A DNA stretch of 64,000 nt, from contig NZ_JADEVE010000336.1 in assembly GCF_016125955.1 (NCBI RefSeq), positions 186,001-250,000 on the forward strand. The letters run 5' to 3'. A program made the translations under genes and the position numbers. Shown one piece after another: positions 4,318 to 13,508 of this stretch; position 1 is the stretch's first letter, and every line of letters starts with the position of its first letter. The stretch comes from Acetomicrobium sp. S15 = DSM 107314. GTDB taxonomy: Bacteria > Synergistota > Synergistia > Synergistales > Thermosynergistaceae. Below the pieces are notes generated by a model, which saw only the letters and a list, made by a program, of their open reading frames with translations, made no database searches and had not been told where the DNA came from.

Positions 4318-4398
4318 TAAACTTGGAGCGGGAAACGGGATTCGAACCCGCGACCTACGGCTTGGAAGGCCGTCGCTCTAACCAGCTGAGCTATTCCC
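4318..4398. repeat. Left island repeat (attL-type), copy of tRNA-Gly
   Basis: 81 bp identical to 13426-13506 in the same orientation. Identity starts six bases before the CCA end of the tRNA and stops two bases short of its 5' end. Confidence 0.9.
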
Positions 4399-4400
4399 AA
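4324..4400 (-). pseudogene. Displaced tRNA-Gly(TCC) copy with altered 5' end
   Basis: Same sequence as the intact tRNA-Gly at 13432-13508 except that bases 1-2 read TT instead of GC. The acceptor stem therefore opens with a U-C mismatch and a U-G wobble. The anticodon TCC and CCA are unchanged. It is probably non-functional or poorly processed, but a promoter just upstream could still transcribe it. Confidence 0.75.
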
Positions 4401-4528: not shown

Positions 4529-5476
4529 GTGAATGAAAGAGGCCATGTAGTTTTATTCCAGGAGAAGTTTCACTCATGGGATGATGCATTGGAAGCCTTC
4601 GCACTCTTCAGGAAGGCTGAGGGCTACTCGGAAAGGACCATCAAAGACTACCGCTATCACGTAACGCGCTTTTTCAAAGAATACCCGCAGGCTTGGAATC
4701 CTCAGGATGCCGGCAAAACAAGGATGGCTGTGCTTTCCTTCCTCGGCCAGGACGGTATCTCACCGGCAACGTTCAACATCAGGCGAAAGTATCTTAAAGC
4801 CTTCTTTTCATGGCTGATAGACGAGGGAGCTTGCACTAAAAACCCGCTCGACGGGATCGGGGCAAGGAAGGCCGAACCGAGGATCGTTCAGCACTCGGCG
4901 GAAGTCTTAGAAAAGCTCTTAAAGCTGCCGGATAGGTCAACTTACTGCGGCAAGCGAGACTACGCCTTGTTGTGCCTTTCCATAGACACAGCCATAAGGC
5001 CAGGTGAGGCACTGTCTCTGACCATTGAAGACGTCGACCTCAAAGACATGGTCGTTTTAGTCCGAGCTTCCGTGTCAAAGACCCGCAAGAGCAGGACGCT
5101 ACCCTTCTCCATAGAGACGACCAAGGCGATACAGGCTCTTGTCATGGCAAGGCCGAAGGAGTGGGAAACACCGCTGCTTTTCACCAACCACGAAGGCCAA
5201 AAATTTACGCTCTCAGGATGGACGCAGAGGTTAAAGAAACATTACGCACCCAAGCTCGGCTTAAAAAAGCTTTCTCCCTACGACCTGCGCCACGATGCGG
5301 CCTTGCACTTTTTGCGCAACGGCATGAACCCCTTTGCGCTCCAGGCGATCATGGGACACTCAAACCTCGAGACCACTAAGCACTACATAGCCCTCGTGGA
5401 GGCGGACATACGCGAGGCGCACGAAGCGGCCTCGCCGGTGAAGAAGCTCCTCGGGAGCAAAAAGCGGGTTAGATAA
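4529..5476 (+). CDS. Tyrosine recombinase / integrase of the island
   Basis: 315-residue XerC/D-like integrase: N-terminal SAM-like core-binding domain (about 15-110) and C-terminal catalytic domain. Catalytic residues visible are R157 (AIRPGEALSL), R254 and H255 in PYDLRH (with Y251 where many members have His), H277 in MGHSNL and the nucleophile Y286 (TTKHYI). The start is GTG at 4529 with a weak ribosome-binding site. It lies 130 bp inside the left repeat, on the side away from the intact tRNA. It is presumed to catalyse integration and excision at tRNA-Gly. A homologous C-terminal remnant lies at the opposite end. Confidence 0.93.
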   Translation: MNERGHVVLFQEKFHSWDDALEAFALFRKAEGYSERTIKDYRYHVTRFFKEYPQAWNPQDAGKTRMAVLSFLGQDGISPATFNIRRKYLKAFFSWLIDEGACTKNPLDGIGARKAEPRIVQHSAEVLEKLLKLPDRSTYCGKRDYALLCLSIDTAIRPGEALSLTIEDVDLKDMVVLVRASVSKTRKSRTLPFSIETTKAIQALVMARPKEWETPLLFTNHEGQKFTLSGWTQRLKKHYAPKLGLKKLSPYDLRHDAALHFLRNGMNPFALQAIMGHSNLETTKHYIALVEADIREAHEAASPVKKLLGSKKRVR

Positions 5477-5730
5477 GGTGAGGTGGGTTAGCCTTTGCTG
5501 AGGCCTTCTTAGATGATAGAATAGGAAAGAAAAATGTGACCAGGATGTATGCGTGAAACTATTGCAGGGATAAGGCGTGACACGAACACGGCCACCGCAA
5601 TCCATCTTAACTCAAGGTCACTTCTTTTTACGGGGAGCATAAGATGTAACTATTAAGTGATACTATGGAAATTAAAGATGTATAAAAGTTTAGTTTTTAA
5701 TAAAATTGTAATTATGTGGGAGATAATAAT

Positions 5731-6378
5731 ATGTATTGTCCAAACTGTGGAAAACAAGTAGATAATGAGAGCAACTTCTGTAGATATTGTGGTGCAAAGG
5801 TTTATAAAAGTGATATATGCGTTAGTGATAAAGAAATTCCACAAAATAGTGTACCAAATGGTGTGTCTTTGTATGATAGCCCTAAATTAATCACTGAAGA
5901 CATGTTTAAATTAAAAAAAGGAGAAAAAATGGTTTTTGAAACAAAACCATCAATAAAATGCTCGCTTTTGATGCCTGTGCTTTGTGGAATTATTACTGCT
6001 CTGATAGGACTGCCTTTCTTATATTTTCCACTTCTTGCATTGTTTCTTACATGGATGGGTATAGTTATAGAGTTAATTGCCTTGGGAATAATATTAATTC
6101 CCTATTTAGTATTTAAAAATATGATTTATGGATTAACAACTCATAGAATTATAAAAATTACTGGAATAATAGGTAAAGATATGTATGAATGTTCGCTTAA
6201 TAGAGTTCAAGACCTTAGATTTAGGATAAGCCCGTTACAGAAAATATTTAGTTGTGGAGATATATTGATATCCACCGCGGGCACAGCCGGGATTGAATGC
6301 ATATGGAGAAACATCGAAAATCCACAAGAAGTACAAAGGATTTTGAGATCTTTATTAGATGCAGTAAGAAAGAATTGA
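5731..6378 (+). CDS. Zinc-ribbon, two-TM, bacterial PH-domain membrane protein
   Basis: About 215 residues. An N-terminal zinc ribbon (CPNC near residue 3, CRYC near 19) is followed by a linker, two hydrophobic helices (about 80-130) and a bPH_2-like region beginning at TTHRIIKITGIIG, the arrangement of YdbS/YdbT-type envelope proteins. ATG at 5731 with GGGAG eight bases upstream is preferred over a GTG at 5716. The gene is strongly AT-rich and isolated within the island. Function unknown; probably bound to the inner membrane. Confidence 0.7.
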   Translation: MYCPNCGKQVDNESNFCRYCGAKVYKSDICVSDKEIPQNSVPNGVSLYDSPKLITEDMFKLKKGEKMVFETKPSIKCSLLMPVLCGIITALIGLPFLYFPLLALFLTWMGIVIELIALGIILIPYLVFKNMIYGLTTHRIIKITGIIGKDMYECSLNRVQDLRFRISPLQKIFSCGDILISTAGTAGIECIWRNIENPQEVQRILRSLLDAVRKN

Positions 6379-6483
6379 CGAATAATTAATAGTGAAGTGA
6401 GATAGACACCATTGTGTTCTGTGAAAGTTACGTATAATTGTAAAATTTAGGATGGCACTTTTCTAAAGTAATTTAAAAGGGCC

Positions 6484-6795
6484 ATGCCCTCTTATAGAAT
6501 AAAATTATCGCAAGCTCAAACTATCGAAGGGATGGAGATGATTCAATTTTATATTACCTTGTATGAGGAGGATTTACACCATCTATTTTCTAGCAATGAC
6601 GAAAGCTTAAAAAGTCATAGAACAATTTACCAATCAACTCCTGGAACAACAGCGTACGAAGCAGATCAATGCAAAGCCTTACTAGCGTACAGAGCAAAGA
6701 AGAGTGGAAGACGCAACAGATGCAGGGAAAGAAGGCTAATTACCAAAGCGAGAACCTTGGCATTGAAAGTACCACAGATAAGAGGAAATTACTAA
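6484..6795 (+). pseudogene. IS256 (mutator)-type transposase N-terminal remnant
   Basis: A 103-codon frame. Its ends resemble the start of IS256-family transposases: MIQFYITLYEEDLHHLF near the N terminus, and RNRCRERRLITKARTLALKV where intact members have RNGYRERxLxTRVGTLELxV. The catalytic DDE domain is absent and the frame stops soon after this region, so it is a truncated relic. No inverted repeats were found around it. Recognition is by eye, so moderate confidence. Confidence 0.55.
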
Positions 6796-6832
6796 AACAG
6801 CGAAGGTAAAAATAGAGAGAAGGGGGAGGCAA

Positions 6833-7168
6833 ATGAAAAGAAATAACACGGTATTGAGAACTTTACTGATAAGCCTGATTTTAGTAGTCATTTTTGTTTC
6901 GATAACTTCAGCGAGTACAAAGTATGTTACAAAAGGCGGTTATCCTTTTGCCACTACCAAAGAGTATCTCAAACAGGCTATTAGCTACATCATTAGCGGC
7001 GATAATGAAGCGCTTGCTAAGCTCATAGCGGCTGGCGTTGTAGGCATTCTTGAAGATGGGACGGTTGTTTACATGGAAGGCGCAACGTGGACACTAGTTG
7101 AATTTAGGTTTCCTGGAAAAACTAAGAAATTTTGGACGGTGATGGAAGCGTTGTCAGAAGTAAAATGA
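6833..7168 (+). CDS. Small secreted protein of unknown function
   Basis: 111 residues with a typical signal peptide (MKRNN, hydrophobic core, cleavage near TSAS) and a mature domain starting TKYVTKGG. The ribosome-binding site GGGGGAGG is strong. First of four consecutive exported or anchored proteins on the island. No family recognised. Cleaved size about 85 residues. Confidence 0.6.
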   Translation: MKRNNTVLRTLLISLILVVIFVSITSASTKYVTKGGYPFATTKEYLKQAISYIISGDNEALAKLIAAGVVGILEDGTVVYMEGATWTLVEFRFPGKTKKFWTVMEALSEVK

Positions 7169-7218
7169 GATTCAATACTATTAAAGAAAGAAGGCGAGAC
7201 AAAATGAAGGGGAAGCCT

Positions 7219-7905
7219 ATGAAGAGATGGTTAATTGGGTGTATTGTTTTTGTAATTATTCTGACGAGTAGTTCAGCCTACGCACAAAAACTTGTAACTT
7301 TCAGGCCAGACGCTGAATCTGGAGTTTTTATGGGCTTCAAGTGGAATGAAAACATAGCAACAATAAATAACCCATCTTATAGTGTAATTGAAACATATAC
7401 AACAGAACACCAAAACAGAGCAACAAACAAAGATGAACCTAAGATCATCCCAGGCCTTACGGCTGCGAATATTAAATCAATCCTTGAAAAAAGTTGGGGG
7501 TTAGTTTTTAGTGGGCCACAAAAAGGAAAATTACTTTTACATGATAGCGGCGAAGCGGTAGACTCTGACACTGGAATTCACTTAATGTGTGATATTTATG
7601 AAACATCACCGCAAAAAGTTCAGTGGGTAAATTTCATAGTTGATGCATCTTATGTTATGGGTTTAATTGAAATTGATCGGATAACCAAATTAGCGGAAAG
7701 ATATTTCAGTAGTTGTGTGACCATATCTTATGATGGAGCCAACCCAACGAAAGCAAAACAATGGGTTGCAAAAAATGTTTCCAAGGCAATTAAACCAGGA
7801 GAGCTTTCAATACAAATTGGCAAGGCAGAAATTAAACTGTTTGGTACTGAATATATGCGTACCTTACAAATTACTCCAATTGGAGGTGCTACACCTCTGT
7901 ATTGA
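7219..7905 (+). CDS. Secreted protein of unknown function
   Basis: About 228 residues from the ATG at 7219, which has AAGGGGAAG just upstream. Alternative starts lie at 7204 and 7132. The signal peptide MKRWLIGCIVFVIILTSSSAYA is cleaved before QKLV. The mature part is soluble, with no repeats or metal motifs that I recognise; it has Cys residues near ICDIYE-like and SSCVTI segments. It follows the previous secreted protein by 50 bp, so the two may share a transcript. Confidence 0.6.
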   Translation: MKRWLIGCIVFVIILTSSSAYAQKLVTFRPDAESGVFMGFKWNENIATINNPSYSVIETYTTEHQNRATNKDEPKIIPGLTAANIKSILEKSWGLVFSGPQKGKLLLHDSGEAVDSDTGIHLMCDIYETSPQKVQWVNFIVDASYVMGLIEIDRITKLAERYFSSCVTISYDGANPTKAKQWVAKNVSKAIKPGELSIQIGKAEIKLFGTEYMRTLQITPIGGATPLY

Positions 7906-7990
7906 CATTAGATTGATATTTAAGTCATGCTAGAAAGATATATAAATTAATTAATGAACAATCTTGTGATTCAATAGGGGGTAGGATTTT

Positions 7991-8557
7991 ATGCGAAAAT
8001 GCTGCCATTTGGGGTTTTTATTATTGTTATTGTTACTTCCCATGGTTGCTTACGCAGGAACTCGATTTGTTGAAGGATCAGCTACAGGTAGATATTACAA
8101 CAATGTATGGAAGACATGGAGCGAAGAACCTATTTATGTATATGTGGACGAAAAAGGCAACACTTACATTAAAGGTGGCGAGGGGCTTATATGTGCAAGA
8201 GGGATTATTTATGCAGGAGAGAGACAGAAATTTATAGAACTGCTAAGAAAAGGAATTAAATGGGCTGAAACTGCAAGGAAAGAACAATTAGAAATTACAA
8301 AAAATTTGGGTTCATTTATGAAAGAAGGATCATACGGTGACAAATATGGAATTAAACTTACATTCTTTTCCGCAAACAAAGGAAACCAAACTGATGTAAT
8401 TTTAGATATAGTCGACTTTGATAATATATTTAATACAATAACCCTTTATTTGAATCCATCACAAGTAAAAGAGCTAATTGAATTACTGGAAAAAGTACCT
8501 CAAACTCTAAAGGAACTCAAGGAACACGAAAAGAAATCTAAGACATTATTAAAATAA
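7991..8557 (+). CDS. Secreted protein with lysine-rich helical tail, unknown function
   Basis: 188 residues. The signal peptide has a run of leucines (residues 9-16) and a likely cleavage site after VAYA. The mature domain contains Y/W-rich segments (YVYVDEKGN), and the C-terminal 40 residues are charged and helical (LKELKEHEKKSKTLLK). GGGGGTAGG precedes the ATG. No family recognised. Confidence 0.6.
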   Translation: MRKCCHLGFLLLLLLLPMVAYAGTRFVEGSATGRYYNNVWKTWSEEPIYVYVDEKGNTYIKGGEGLICARGIIYAGERQKFIELLRKGIKWAETARKEQLEITKNLGSFMKEGSYGDKYGIKLTFFSANKGNQTDVILDIVDFDNIFNTITLYLNPSQVKELIELLEKVPQTLKELKEHEKKSKTLLK

Positions 8558-8605
8558 CAGTAGTTCAATGAGTTTGCTGAATTGTTCAATAACCAGGATA
8601 GCAGG

Positions 8606-9370
8606 ATGCAAAGTAAAATGAAAGAGAAGATATATAGGGTGGCATTGCTAATTGGATGCATTGCTCTTATGTTCGTTTTATTAACACACGATGAATCTCC
8701 AGAAAATGAATCATTGACTAAGTATCGCAAACGTGCTAATTCTGATGATGCCCAAACAGTAGAAGAAGCGATATTTCACGCAACTGCCCGTGACCTCATA
8801 ATTTCACATATAGAACCCAATAAACTAGGCATTAAAGGGCATGAATTCAGGGTAAAACGTAATCCAGTTGGTGAAGGCTGTTTTGTTTATGACCTCGCAC
8901 CAAATCCAATAATACAGACACAGAAAGACTATTTGGTTTGGTGGGTCCGTGACGACACCCATGCTTATGCGCTTAACGGTCCGAGCAAGATGGTGACACC
9001 AACTTTGCCTTATCCAAGAGAGGATTTGGGGGCAAAGTATAATGAGATAACCACAATAGTGGTTAACTATACATTTAGAAACGTTCCAATAATTTACTGG
9101 CCAGCAAGCGTCAGCACACCTCCTACTGAGACTTATACCGTTATGGAATACAAAATATACGACTATGTGATCAATGCATCCATGCCAGAAGAGAAAGCCA
9201 TACAGGAAATGGCCAAGCATTATAATATATCTACTGAGCAAGTAAAAGAGATATGCGATAAAGTCTCTAACATTCTTTACAAGAACAATTGGTTTGGAAT
9301 GTCATGTGAGCAATTGCTTAAACAGGCATCTGATTGCAATTGGCGCTATAAGTACATTTTATATAGTTAG
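8606..9370 (+). CDS. Membrane-anchored exported protein of unknown function
   Basis: About 254 residues from the ATG at 8606 (a TTG at 8582 is also possible). A single N-terminal hydrophobic segment (VALLIGCIALMFVLL) without a clear cleavage site suggests an anchor. The exported domain has Trp-rich and Pro-rich segments and ends with a helical region. No family recognised. Last of the plus-strand island genes; it converges on hxsC. Confidence 0.55.
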   Translation: MQSKMKEKIYRVALLIGCIALMFVLLTHDESPENESLTKYRKRANSDDAQTVEEAIFHATARDLIISHIEPNKLGIKGHEFRVKRNPVGEGCFVYDLAPNPIIQTQKDYLVWWVRDDTHAYALNGPSKMVTPTLPYPREDLGAKYNEITTIVVNYTFRNVPIIYWPASVSTPPTETYTVMEYKIYDYVINASMPEEKAIQEMAKHYNISTEQVKEICDKVSNILYKNNWFGMSCEQLLKQASDCNWRYKYILYS

Positions 9371-9515: not shown

Positions 9516-10652
9516 TTACTGTCCAAGAATAGGAGAAATATTTGGACTAACATGCACAGACGTTTCAAAAAGCCCGCAGCAATTTACCCTCTCTTCACAA
9601 GAAGAACAAAGATCTAAATAGGTTTTTTTCCATGTTGAAATGGAGTCTCTAGAAAATTCCCAAATATCACGAGGCAAAAGGCATCTTGGTACATTATAGA
9701 TTGATATATTCATTTCCCGCCTATGAAGTTGAAGTATTGCCTCTCTAAGAAGACCTGCATAATCAACGGGATCTATTCTGATCGACTCAAGATTCTTTGC
9801 CGCTTCCCCCGTATACTCCAGCCCCATAAAGGCAATATGCGAAACGAACGGAAGGTTTCGATAGACAAATTCAGCATAATAAGGTAAGCGCTCGTAATTT
9901 TGTCGCATAATAACAAAGCGCAGCTCTATTCTGCATCTAAAGCGAGCTAAATTATATAACCCTCGCATTACATGACCAAAGGCGGCCTCGGCTCCTACGA
10001 TCTCATCATGAACGTCATCAATGTCTCCGTTTAGAGAAATGCAAAAGAGAAGGAATTTGTTCCTTTGTTCAATAAGTTGTTTAGTTTTACTAAAATCAGC
10101 TAATGCAATTCCGTTTGTAAGAATAGCAAGATGTGCATTAGGCAATCTCTTTTTGCAAAAGACTAATAAATCTTTTAACTGTTCCATTTCTAACGTAGGT
10201 TCTCCGCCTGAAAAGCAGATGGAGTTTGTTTTTGAGCTGACCATAGAAAGAATCTCTTTATTCTCTTTCCAAAAAGACGATGATAAATTAGAGTTAGCAG
10301 GTTGTGGGCACATTATGCACCGGCAGTTACACTTATCTGTAACAAAAATCACATTTTGGAGAGATCCTTCTTCCCATACTCTAACAACATTTCCATTGGG
10401 ATAGATCTTAATAATGTCCCCCGTGCGCAATTCCGAAAGAGATTCAGGACTTATGCCTCCAATATAAGGCATTTTGCCATACAATCTTGGCAAACTCGTA
10501 CTCGAAGTTAAAAATGCTTTATGTCTTAAGCTCCAATGAAACTTTTCGGCCACAAGAACGGTTTTATGCCTACCAAACGACAAGGCCCTCCTTGAAACTT
10601 TTCCTATAAGTGGCTCTAAAATGTTATGTGAGGTTCCCTGAAGAGTTTTCAT
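9516..10652 (-). CDS. hxsC: His-Xaa-Ser system radical SAM maturase HxsC
   Basis: 378 residues. Radical SAM core with the [4Fe-4S]/SAM triad CNCRCIMC (CxxxCxxC) preceded by VIFVTDK, and a GGEP-type motif (CFSGGEPTLE). C-terminal cysteines (LCSSCEERVNCCG) suggest an extra cluster or metal site. Presumed role: SAM-dependent modification of the HxsA repeat peptide together with HxsB. Its ATG overlaps the hxsB stop (ATGA), indicating coupled translation. Assigned from the HxsC-like motif and the HxsA/HxsD/HxsB context. The chemistry of the family is, to my knowledge, not established. Confidence 0.87.
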   Translation of the reverse strand: MKTLQGTSHNILEPLIGKVSRRALSFGRHKTVLVAEKFHWSLRHKAFLTSSTSLPRLYGKMPYIGGISPESLSELRTGDIIKIYPNGNVVRVWEEGSLQNVIFVTDKCNCRCIMCPQPANSNLSSSFWKENKEILSMVSSKTNSICFSGGEPTLEMEQLKDLLVFCKKRLPNAHLAILTNGIALADFSKTKQLIEQRNKFLLFCISLNGDIDDVHDEIVGAEAAFGHVMRGLYNLARFRCRIELRFVIMRQNYERLPYYAEFVYRNLPFVSHIAFMGLEYTGEAAKNLESIRIDPVDYAGLLREAILQLHRREMNISIYNVPRCLLPRDIWEFSRDSISTWKKTYLDLCSSCEERVNCCGLFETSVHVSPNISPILGQ

Positions 10653-12046
10653 AAGCGTATTTCCTCTAATGGCCTATGAGTAATCCAAGACCAAAATACA
10701 TTCATTACCTGTTCATCATTTTCCAAGATATAATTAAACAGGAAATCCATGATACTCTTGTTTTTCCTACAGAAGTCACTGTGTGGGCTAAATCCTACTA
10801 CGTCTCCGGTTTCTACATAATTCCGGACGGGATCCGATCCACAATAAGTCTGATAAACGCAAGAAGAGCACTCTGGAAGTATTTCAACACAAGATTTAGA
10901 GGTAATTGATCTTAGTTTTTCGCCTCCAAATATTTCTTCATATGAATTTTTTTCAACGTTACCTAGGAGAAACCTTTTGTTTCCAGTTCTAGCAAGCATA
11001 CGAGCCTCATCTGTAGGATAAACGTCTCCGTTATAGTCATAAATTGCTCCACTGATACCAGCACCCGCCGGAGATTGCAGATCCATAAATCCAGTAGTAA
11101 ATGGAGTTAAAATCCTCGAAAGAAGAAGCGTAGCAAAGTACTCAGCAAAATACTCCCCGTTAAGATTTCTCTGTAAAATGTAACGAAAACCCTCCTTGTA
11201 GGTTTCGATGAACTCTTTCATTGAATAACCAAGCGTAGCAATGTCTTCCCTTGCAAAACCGTAAGGATTTAAAGATCTTAAAAAGATTCCTTTGAAACCA
11301 AGTCGCATATATTCATCAACAACTTCCCTAATCCTTCCTAAATGATCCCGCGTAATGGTTAGAAGTGGTGATATAGCTTCATCTCCCATAATACGACGTG
11401 CAAGTAGAAGATTTTCGACGAATTTATCATATGAGCTTGAGCCATTTCTCATCTTGCGATGCAGGTCATGCAGTTCCTTTGGGCCGTCTAAAGAGGTAGA
11501 AATTTGCACACCTTCTGCTTTTAGAAATTTTATTTTGCTCTCATCTAATAATGTCATATTGGTACAAACCACAAATTCTAACTTTTTATTTGCTTTCTTG
11601 TTATGTTTTTTGGCATAATGAACAATTCTTACCAGTGTTTCCCAATTGATAAGCGGTTCTCCTCCTTGAAACTCAATTTTGATCACTTTAGAAGGAGATA
11701 TAAAGATCATATCGACCACTGCATCTGCAATATCAGGACGCATATTTTGCGACATATGTCCTTTTATCAAATCAGAACTAGAGGCATGGCAATAATCACA
11801 ACGACCATTACAATGCCCTGTCAACACTATCATATGAAGAGAAGTAAAATTTTTTAGGAAGGCTTTTCGAGTTCTTAATTTTGTGGCAAGCATTTCAACT
11901 GATAGTTCCAAGTCATGATCTGTAATGAAGTTTTTACTTTTTAATAACGAAAATGTATGAGAATCAACAGTAAAAGGATTCTTCAAAAGAGTTTCGAATT
12001 CTTGAATCGAAATTACTGCATATTCTCCAGCATAGTTAACAAGCAA
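10649..12046 (-). CDS. hxsB: His-Xaa-Ser system radical SAM/SPASM maturase HxsB
   Basis: 465 residues from a TTG at 12046. Radical SAM triad CNGRCDYC, GGEP motif (EFQGGEPLIN), and a C-terminal SPASM-like domain with CVEILPECSSC, YC and DFC cysteines for auxiliary clusters. The HxsB-like N-terminal pattern LPFSFKFLG precedes LVNYAGEY but lies upstream of the TTG in the same open frame, and that extension has no ATG, GTG or TTG. The true N terminus may therefore arise by frameshift from hxsD or at a non-standard start. It probably modifies HxsA with HxsC. Confidence 0.87.
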   Translation of the reverse strand: MLVNYAGEYAVISIQEFETLLKNPFTVDSHTFSLLKSKNFITDHDLELSVEMLATKLRTRKAFLKNFTSLHMIVLTGHCNGRCDYCHASSSDLIKGHMSQNMRPDIADAVVDMIFISPSKVIKIEFQGGEPLINWETLVRIVHYAKKHNKKANKKLEFVVCTNMTLLDESKIKFLKAEGVQISTSLDGPKELHDLHRKMRNGSSSYDKFVENLLLARRIMGDEAISPLLTITRDHLGRIREVVDEYMRLGFKGIFLRSLNPYGFAREDIATLGYSMKEFIETYKEGFRYILQRNLNGEYFAEYFATLLLSRILTPFTTGFMDLQSPAGAGISGAIYDYNGDVYPTDEARMLARTGNKRFLLGNVEKNSYEEIFGGEKLRSITSKSCVEILPECSSCVYQTYCGSDPVRNYVETGDVVGFSPHSDFCRKNKSIMDFLFNYILENDEQVMNVFWSWITHRPLEEIRL

Positions 12047-12111
12047 AACATTCGTATTTCCTAAAAACTTAAAGGAGAATGGAAGGAAGGAAAACCATTG
12101 TTCAGTCGCTT

Positions 12112-12447
12112 TTAAGGATTTTTTTTTACCGGCGAAAAGGCATACTCCACAATAATATCTCTAACATGTCCAAACTCTCGTTCAAGATTAACACGAACCT
12201 GCTGATCCAAAGCCTCATTTATGAATAATTGGGCATCTTTCTCGACCTCTGCAAGGGTTCTGCCATTTTTAGGTTCAAATAGAACGCCAATCGATTCTTC
12301 ATCTATAGGGAATACTTTAATAACATTCTCACCTATAAAGTTATAGGCTGCTGAAAAAATGGCAGCCTGACTATAAAGCGACTTTTGAAGGCTAACTAAA
12401 TAACCTTTCTCCTGAGAAATAACAAAAGAATGTTTAAGATCAATCAT
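12112..12447 (-). CDS. hxsD: His-Xaa-Ser system protein HxsD
   Basis: 111 residues, the expected size of HxsD, a small conserved partner of the two maturases whose role is unknown. It ends with VEYAFSPVKKNP, in keeping with the family's C-terminal AFxP pattern as I know it. It lies 36 bp downstream of hxsA. Its last codons contain a run of nine A (minus strand; T run at 12119-12127), and the -1 frame there opens directly into hxsB. Confidence 0.8.
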   Translation of the reverse strand: MIDLKHSFVISQEKGYLVSLQKSLYSQAAIFSAAYNFIGENVIKVFPIDEESIGVLFEPKNGRTLAEVEKDAQLFINEALDQQVRVNLEREFGHVRDIIVEYAFSPVKKNP

Positions 12448-12483
12448 CTCTTCATATGATTAAAACATCATGAGATAAACTTG

Positions 12484-12747
12484 CTACTTGGACGAATAGT
12501 GCGAATAATGAGATCGGTGTGAATAATGAGATTGATGAGAGCTGTGCGAATAATGCTCTTGCGGGAGCTGTGTGATTACATTACTTTGAATGTCAGAATT
12601 CGCAAGCTCTAAGTAAACTGGTGTATCTTCTGAAATTCTCTCCAGCTTCTGTTTTTCCTGTGCTTGAGATATCTGCGAGAGGCCCAAAAACGAACTCCCA
12701 CCAACAAGAAGTCCTAAGACTGCGGAAATAATCGAATTCTTCTTCAT
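12484..12747 (-). CDS. hxsA: His-Xaa-Ser repeat precursor HxsA
   Basis: 87 residues from the ATG at 12747 (GGAGG eight bases upstream). The N-terminal 29 residues form a signal-like hydrophobic segment (SAVLGLLVGGSSFLGL). A linker follows, then seven uninterrupted His-Xaa-Ser triplets from H65 to S85 (HYS HSS HQS HYS HRS HYS) ending YSSK. This is the defining substrate-like protein of the Hxs system, a predicted ribosomally made, radical-SAM-modified peptide. The regular His spacing could bind metal. First gene of hxsA-D-B-C behind a near-consensus promoter. Confidence 0.9.
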   Translation of the reverse strand: MKKNSIISAVLGLLVGGSSFLGLSQISQAQEKQKLERISEDTPVYLELANSDIQSNVITQLPQEHYSHSSHQSHYSHRSHYSHYSSK

Positions 12748-12799
12748 AGCCAAGCCCTCCAAAGGCTAAATTATAACCTGGCTCCTACCTCAGTTATTT

Positions 12800-12827
12800 A
12801 TTATAGAAGTGGATTACTTTCTGTCAA
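12800..12827 (-). promoter_or_regulatory. Near-consensus sigma-70 promoter of hxsADBC
   Basis: Minus-strand TTGACA (12822-12827) and TATAAT (12800-12805), both perfect, with a 16-bp spacer. The expected start is about 45 bp before the hxsA ATG. The remaining bases up to 13013 show no gene. Confidence 0.8.
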
Positions 12828-13013: not shown

Positions 13014-13220
13014 TTACTTTATCTTCCCCACCCTCCTTTTAGTGGGCACGAGCTTATTCACTGGCGAGGCGTGCGCATGCTGCTCTTTTATGTCGTCTTG
13101 TGTATATGCCACGTAGCGCTTGGTCATGGTTAAGTCTGTGTGTCCGAGGATGCGCTGCAGAGACAATGTGTTGCCGGAAGCAAGCTTGGGAGAGAGGCTG
13201 ATGTATTGAATGTTATTAAT
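13014..13220 (-). pseudogene. Vestigial tyrosine integrase, C-terminal fragment
   Basis: The minus-strand frame ending TAA at 13014-13016 encodes LQRILGHTDLTMTKRYV followed by HASPVNKLVPTKRRVGK. This matches, in order, the GHxxxxTTKxY box and the tail HEAASPVKKLLGSKKRVR of the island's intact integrase. The upstream HxLRH box and the N-terminal domains are gone. The boundary near 13220 is approximate. It faces inward from the right end, mirroring the intact gene on the left. Confidence 0.7.
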
Positions 13221-13426: not shown

Positions 13427-13506
13427 AAACTTGGAGCGGGAAACGGGATTCGAACCCGCGACCTACGGCTTGGAAGGCCGTCGCTCTAACCAGCTGAGCT
13501 ATTCCC
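13426..13506. repeat. Right island repeat (attR-type) within intact tRNA-Gly
   Basis: 81 bp identical to 4318-4398. It contains the tRNA-Gly from base 3 through CCA. Confidence 0.9.
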
Positions 13507-13508
13507 GC
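13432..13508 (-). tRNA. tRNA-Gly(TCC), intact copy
   Basis: 77-nt tRNA with fully paired acceptor GCGGGAA/TTCCCGC, anticodon loop CTTCCAA (TCC) and encoded CCA. It is the integration target of the island; the element supplied a 3' part that restores the gene. Confidence 0.96.

Follow-up and report, generated by a model that had tools for sequence, protein, structure and literature searches.

The DNA analysed here, a 64-kb stretch referred to below as the window, carries a His-Xaa-Ser (Hxs) cassette in which the reading frames of hxsD and hxsB meet at a run of nine As (A9), one base out of phase with each other. The question raised by this locus is whether hxsD and hxsB are two genes or one and, if one, how the fused protein would be produced. 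The relevant features, in the direction of transcription, are the following.

12800-12827, minus strand: promoter TTGACA-16-TATAAT, full consensus match (12/12), spacer 16 bp
12484-12747, minus strand: hxsA, ATG start (alternative TTG at 12762), 87-aa precursor; signal peptide, [ST]P-V/L-YL motif and seven HxS triplets assigned from the family alignment
12112-12447, minus strand: hxsD, 111 aa without slippage, N-terminal part of the HxsD-HxsB reading unit
12119-12127, minus strand: A9 tract at the hxsD/hxsB junction, with ten As (A10) at the same position in the relative G033
10649-12118, minus strand: hxsB reading frame extended to take in the conserved LPFSF N-terminus, based on profile score, alignment, start-codon check and CteB-like fold
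10649-12046, minus strand: hxsB as the listed ORF, whose first start codon is TTG
9516-10652, minus strand: hxsC, second radical SAM protein, with matches to TIGR03977 and PF04055

An earlier note on this DNA had identified the locus as an Hxs cassette, and the identification is borne out. HxsD (62.4 bits against TIGR03976, cut-off 50), HxsB in the form of the listed ORF (553.9 bits against TIGR03978, cut-off 370) and HxsC (321.4 bits against TIGR03977, cut-off 267.9) all exceed their NCBIfam cut-offs, and their genes form one unit with that of an HxS-repeat precursor, as in the Hxs system defined by these models and TIGR03979. The minus-strand ORFs and the seven triplets that the note described are present at the positions given above, the triplets following one another without interruption at the C-terminal end of HxsA (HYS HSS HQS HYS HRS HYS HYS SK). 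What it called a near-consensus promoter is a perfect TTGACA-16/18-TATAAT, and the window has no other. The model search that it had proposed was thus positive for three of the proteins and negative for HxsA, which scores 32.9 bits against a cut-off of 121.65 with TIGR03979, a model of 190 positions compared to the 87 residues of the window protein. Relatedness of this HxsA to the family is nonetheless clear from the repeat and from the family alignment; since the short HxsA proteins of other lineages look alike, the locus can still be filed under the Hxs system, but HxsA does not earn the equivalog label. The claim that failed is that the locus is a standard hxsA-D-B-C set whose four genes are separate: in the usual form of the system hxsD and hxsB are separate and have their own starts, while in the window they form a single reading unit across the A tract. 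Gene order differs as well, being A-DB-C in the window and D-B-C-A in most relatives from other lineages; hxsA also comes first in the hxsA2 types found on plasmids. The hxsC and hxsB sequences overlap by four bases (ATGA). Elsewhere, one hxs cassette is flanked by two hxsA-like genes on opposite strands (L012:5072-5467, plus strand, and L012:10469-10762, minus strand).

Upstream of the TTG at 12046, the hxsB frame remains open back through the A9 tract at the end of hxsD. Inclusion of this extension raises the TIGR03978 score from 553.9 to 568.4 bits (+14.5) and brings the match to position 2 of the profile. The added stretch encodes LPFSF, corresponding to a conserved [LM]P-x-x-[FY] motif that opens HxsB in relatives of many lineages and is encoded upstream of the point equivalent to the TTG in 12 of 12 aligned relatives. 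The 24 codons that separate the A9 tract from the TTG include no in-frame ATG, GTG, TTG, CTG, ATT, ATC or ATA. In G033, which has A10 at the collinear position, hxsD and hxsB make up one ORF of 598 residues. The LPFSFK segment is identical in the two genomes and its four nucleotide differences are all synonymous third-position changes; dS is saturated, making dN/dS unusable. A window transcript with A10 would encode 599 residues, and with A9 the 111-residue HxsD; conversely, G033 with A9 would give a 110-residue HxsD. The A9 frame stops within two codons past the tract in both cases. It follows from these predicted products that whether HxsD or HxsD-HxsB is encoded depends, in both genomes, on the number of As. 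Given a conserved N-terminus that lacks a start codon and the fusion in G033, the window cassette, as judged from its sequence, is of the A-(D-B)-C type, with the D-B fusion off by one A. The fused architecture appears well supported, the comparison being one of draft genomes with a single relative carrying the fusion.

The predicted structures bear on where HxsB begins. The HxsB model (mean pLDDT 80) comprises three N-terminal strands, helices, a radical SAM core and a C-terminal part, with residues 12-17 and 21-26 forming the first two strands of the three-strand N-terminal unit. A protein begun at the TTG would lack the first of these strands and have the second truncated. A start at TTG 12046 was rejected because the conserved N-terminal strand would be lost. 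The best fold match of HxsB is the SCIFF maturase CteB (5wgg/5why, over 462-474 columns), which is also its best sequence match and is built of an N-terminal domain, a radical SAM core and a SPASM domain; we take the N-terminal part of CteB to be a leader-binding domain. HxsD is modelled (pLDDT 86) as beta-beta-alpha-beta-beta-long alpha, an order that, in the model, does not look like that of an RRE. Foldseek found no PDB match to it at E <= 0.001 and a profile search was likewise empty, so its fold is left unclaimed.

The fusion is rare among the genomes surveyed. Among 183 genomes from the order, seven have HxsB, and the window genome and G033 are alone in having it in this form. In the other five, HxsB is 31-34% identical to the G033 protein and no fused hxsD-hxsB frame was found; nor was a fusion present in any of 31 distinct HxsD-bearing genomes from other groups. 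Several apparent cases were dismissed. The 428-aa HxsD frame of G1173 is a chance open frame, hxsB being read in another one. On a Paraburkholderia plasmid the two genes are in the same frame, with a TAG stop between them. The best-matching plasmids yielded a single match spanning HxsD and HxsB, and on examination no fusion. Hxs cassettes occur on 410 of 72,556 plasmid records, 316 of them from Klebsiella, and the plasmids bearing them are mostly predicted to be conjugative. No relative was found among the viral contigs searched. HxsB relatives were seen in a Leptospira phage, accompanied by hxsC (KF114877.1, 80081-81511), and in an unannotated human-gut phage contig (MT837156.1, 3652-5031).

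The cassette had also been placed on a genomic island, a claim that the surrounding sequence confirms. The island spans about 9.1 kb with 39% GC, as against 52% around it, and is bounded by these features:

4324-4400, minus strand: tRNA-Gly(TCC), left copy (ARAGORN)
4529-5476, plus strand: complete tyrosine recombinase, at the island's left end (PF00589, 1.3e-29)
13014-13166, minus strand: right-end remnant of another tyrosine recombinase, C-terminal part, reading LQRILGHTDLTMTKRYV (PF00589, 15.1 bits, below the cut-off)
13432-13508, minus strand: tRNA-Gly(TCC), right copy (ARAGORN); the empty site of the congener G001 has only one copy

The two tRNA-Gly genes are identical and lie in an 81-bp exact repeat. 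In G001, the one congener compared, the genes for tRNA-Arg, tRNA-Gly, tRNA-Pro and tRNA-Ala follow each other uninterrupted, with one tRNA-Gly marking the empty site; its flanks are 92-95% identical to the window and the island sequence has no match in that genome. The duplicated tRNA gene, the integrase and the empty site in a relative, hallmarks of islands integrated at tRNA genes, are thus all found here. G033 also has a recombinase, 48% identical to that of the window, about 1.5 kb from its hxs genes. The GC contrast, the tRNA-Gly repeats, the recombinases, the empty site and the proximity of a recombinase in G033 make mobile cargo the most likely status of the Hxs cassette. Other cargo (5716-9370, plus strand), convergent with hxs, encodes a zinc-ribbon and bPH_2 protein alongside several unknown proteins whose Pfam matches are negligible or absent and some of which appear to carry signal peptides; it is not seen beside hxs in G033. 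Overall, we consider it rather probable that the window carries a horizontally acquired hxsA-(hxsD-hxsB)-hxsC cassette, in which D and B are one fused protein by descent and the A tract introduces a phase break at the domain junction.

Since the D and B halves are out of frame at the A9 run, the Hxs machinery may depend on slippage at this site. Slippage would yield a minority of HxsD-HxsB fusion beside free 111-aa HxsD; the slipping agent would be RNA polymerase, or less likely the ribosome, and translation of HxsC could be coupled to that of hxsB through the ATGA overlap. The number of As in the mRNA (or in the DNA, by phase variation) would then determine whether free HxsD or the fusion is made, and so set the dose of the maturase, an idea that we advance tentatively and rate somewhat below an even chance. 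To our knowledge, such a way of setting dosage is undescribed for RiPP maturases. A precedent for the tract itself is found in Thermus thermophilus dnaX, in which nine As in the coding frame likewise give rise to two protein lengths through transcriptional slippage, with a 50% yield (PMC1088944); in dnaX, however, slippage was shown experimentally and the slipped product is the shorter one, whereas in the window slippage is inferred and its product would be longer.

The local signals are mixed. Slippage genes are expected to have at least nine A/T at the frame junction, which is the case in both genomes, and conservation of tract length is considered a mark of purposeful slippage (PMC1088944), which is not what we find: the tract has nine bases in the window and ten in G033, the only two homologues compared, both from draft genomes. 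The -1 frameshift heptamer A_AAA_AAA is present, without significant downstream structure. No significant stimulatory RNA structure was detected (z -0.60 in the window, +1.29 for a stretch of G033 containing the tract), and the idea of a hairpin stimulating ribosomal frameshifting was dropped. A GGAG lies 17 bases upstream in the window, at the edge of the active range reported in PMC4066793, and is missing from G033. A9 is the only A/T run of at least eight bases in the window and one of three A9 runs in the 2.44-Mb genome; the second appears as a T-run after a gene, and the third (L053:297-305, contig C273) falls on the WLKKK frameshift site of a degenerate IS3-type element. A strong depletion of A9 as a sign of selection lost weight once A7 runs were counted. 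Run counts fall about 10-fold per added base from A7 to A9 genome-wide (the A8 count being estimated from a listed sample), and the rarity of A9 is for this reason not specific and suggestive only.

A simpler account of the phase break is that the true sequence is A10, encoding an ordinary in-frame fusion, and that one A was lost through a sequencing or assembly error. We give this a substantial chance, though short of an even one. Homopolymers are the commonest error sites, the window genome is a draft in 438 contigs, and G033 has exactly A10 together with an intact fusion. Short-read drafts usually get nine-base runs right, however, and with nothing else broken in hxsB or hxsC the local sequence shows no mark of poor quality. 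The base count could also be wrong in G033, whose assembly contains Ns and a stretch of poly-A junk; the long poly-A runs on one of its contigs (L058, C2:2511-2846) are probably an assembly artefact. A real difference in tract length could alternatively reflect phase variation by replication slippage, cells with A10 producing the fusion and cells with A9 only HxsD, so that modification is switched on or off. Tract lengths one base apart in the two genomes, and the end of the A9 frame so close to the tract in both, fit this scheme; differing tract lengths are compatible with replication slippage, and variation of run length within a population is the mark of the mechanism (Baranov et al., PMC1088944), but one sequence per species was available, and we regard phase variation as unlikely.

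The lost A might also be a recent disabling frameshift, leaving HxsB no longer properly made. The frame is indeed broken, and HxsB made from the TTG would be without the first strand of its N-terminal domain; yet hxsB and hxsC are fully open downstream, with strong family scores, intact cysteine motifs and no second lesion, and inactivation seems to us improbable. Very doubtful, finally, is the view that the cassette comprises four separate genes with HxsB translated from the TTG at 12046, a codon preceded 12 bases upstream by a weak Shine-Dalgarno-like AGGA. Translation from there would drop the LPFxF segment, which is conserved in every aligned relative and only synonymously changed relative to G033, where it is part of a fusion. 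The likelihoods given to these alternatives overlap with that of the fused architecture because they mainly concern the mode of expression.

As for the chemistry, the HxsA family alignment brings out the HxS repeat together with a signal peptide and a motif close to [ST]P[LV]YL. By analogy with RiPP enzymes, an RRE-like domain at the start of HxsB might bind the S/T-P-L/V-Y-L motif; HxsB might then cross-link the His and Ser of every HxS triplet while HxsA is still in the cytoplasm, with export by means of its signal peptide coming afterwards, and HxsC would perform a second step. Formation of a His-Ser cross-link by HxsB is conceivable, if somewhat less than probable, and draws on the triceptide enzymes. 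In HaaB and YhhB products, the C2 of His is bonded to a beta carbon two residues further on (i+2), a position at which MscB uses Ser (PMC11002830). The i, i+2 spacing recurs in the HxS repeat, and a short motif whose first residue is aromatic is likewise shared. Triceptide systems have one radical SAM enzyme as opposed to two in Hxs. The 3-CyFE family models YhhB (81.7 against 445), FxsB (64.8 against 370), GrrM and AmcB all score far below cut-off with HxsB, so that the comparison is a working analogy. By score, the closest named relatives of HxsB are not the triceptide enzymes but PapB and SCIFF-type thioether enzymes; CteB makes Cys thioethers, while the HxS repeat in the window contains no Cys. 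The signal peptides found across the family, together with an HxsA relative that has three C-terminal PG_binding_1 domains (L009:8565-9419), lend indirect support to an envelope role of the product, and the latter protein points to the cell wall as a possible destination. No evidence was found in this analysis for the metal binding suggested in the earlier note.

The gene set was already known; in the window, its D-B reading unit is split by a one-base phase difference. Automatic annotation of the locus would yield a truncated HxsB, which might then misleadingly fail in experiments. Hxs cassettes are widespread, as the plasmid records indicate, and our literature search returned no paper reporting an Hxs product. 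For reconstitution, the fusion offers an enzyme in a single polypeptide. If slippage does operate, it would represent a new way to set the stoichiometry of RiPP enzymes. A natural HxsD-HxsB fusion indicates, moreover, that HxsD works on or beside HxsB, which opens a direct test of what this small unclassified protein does.
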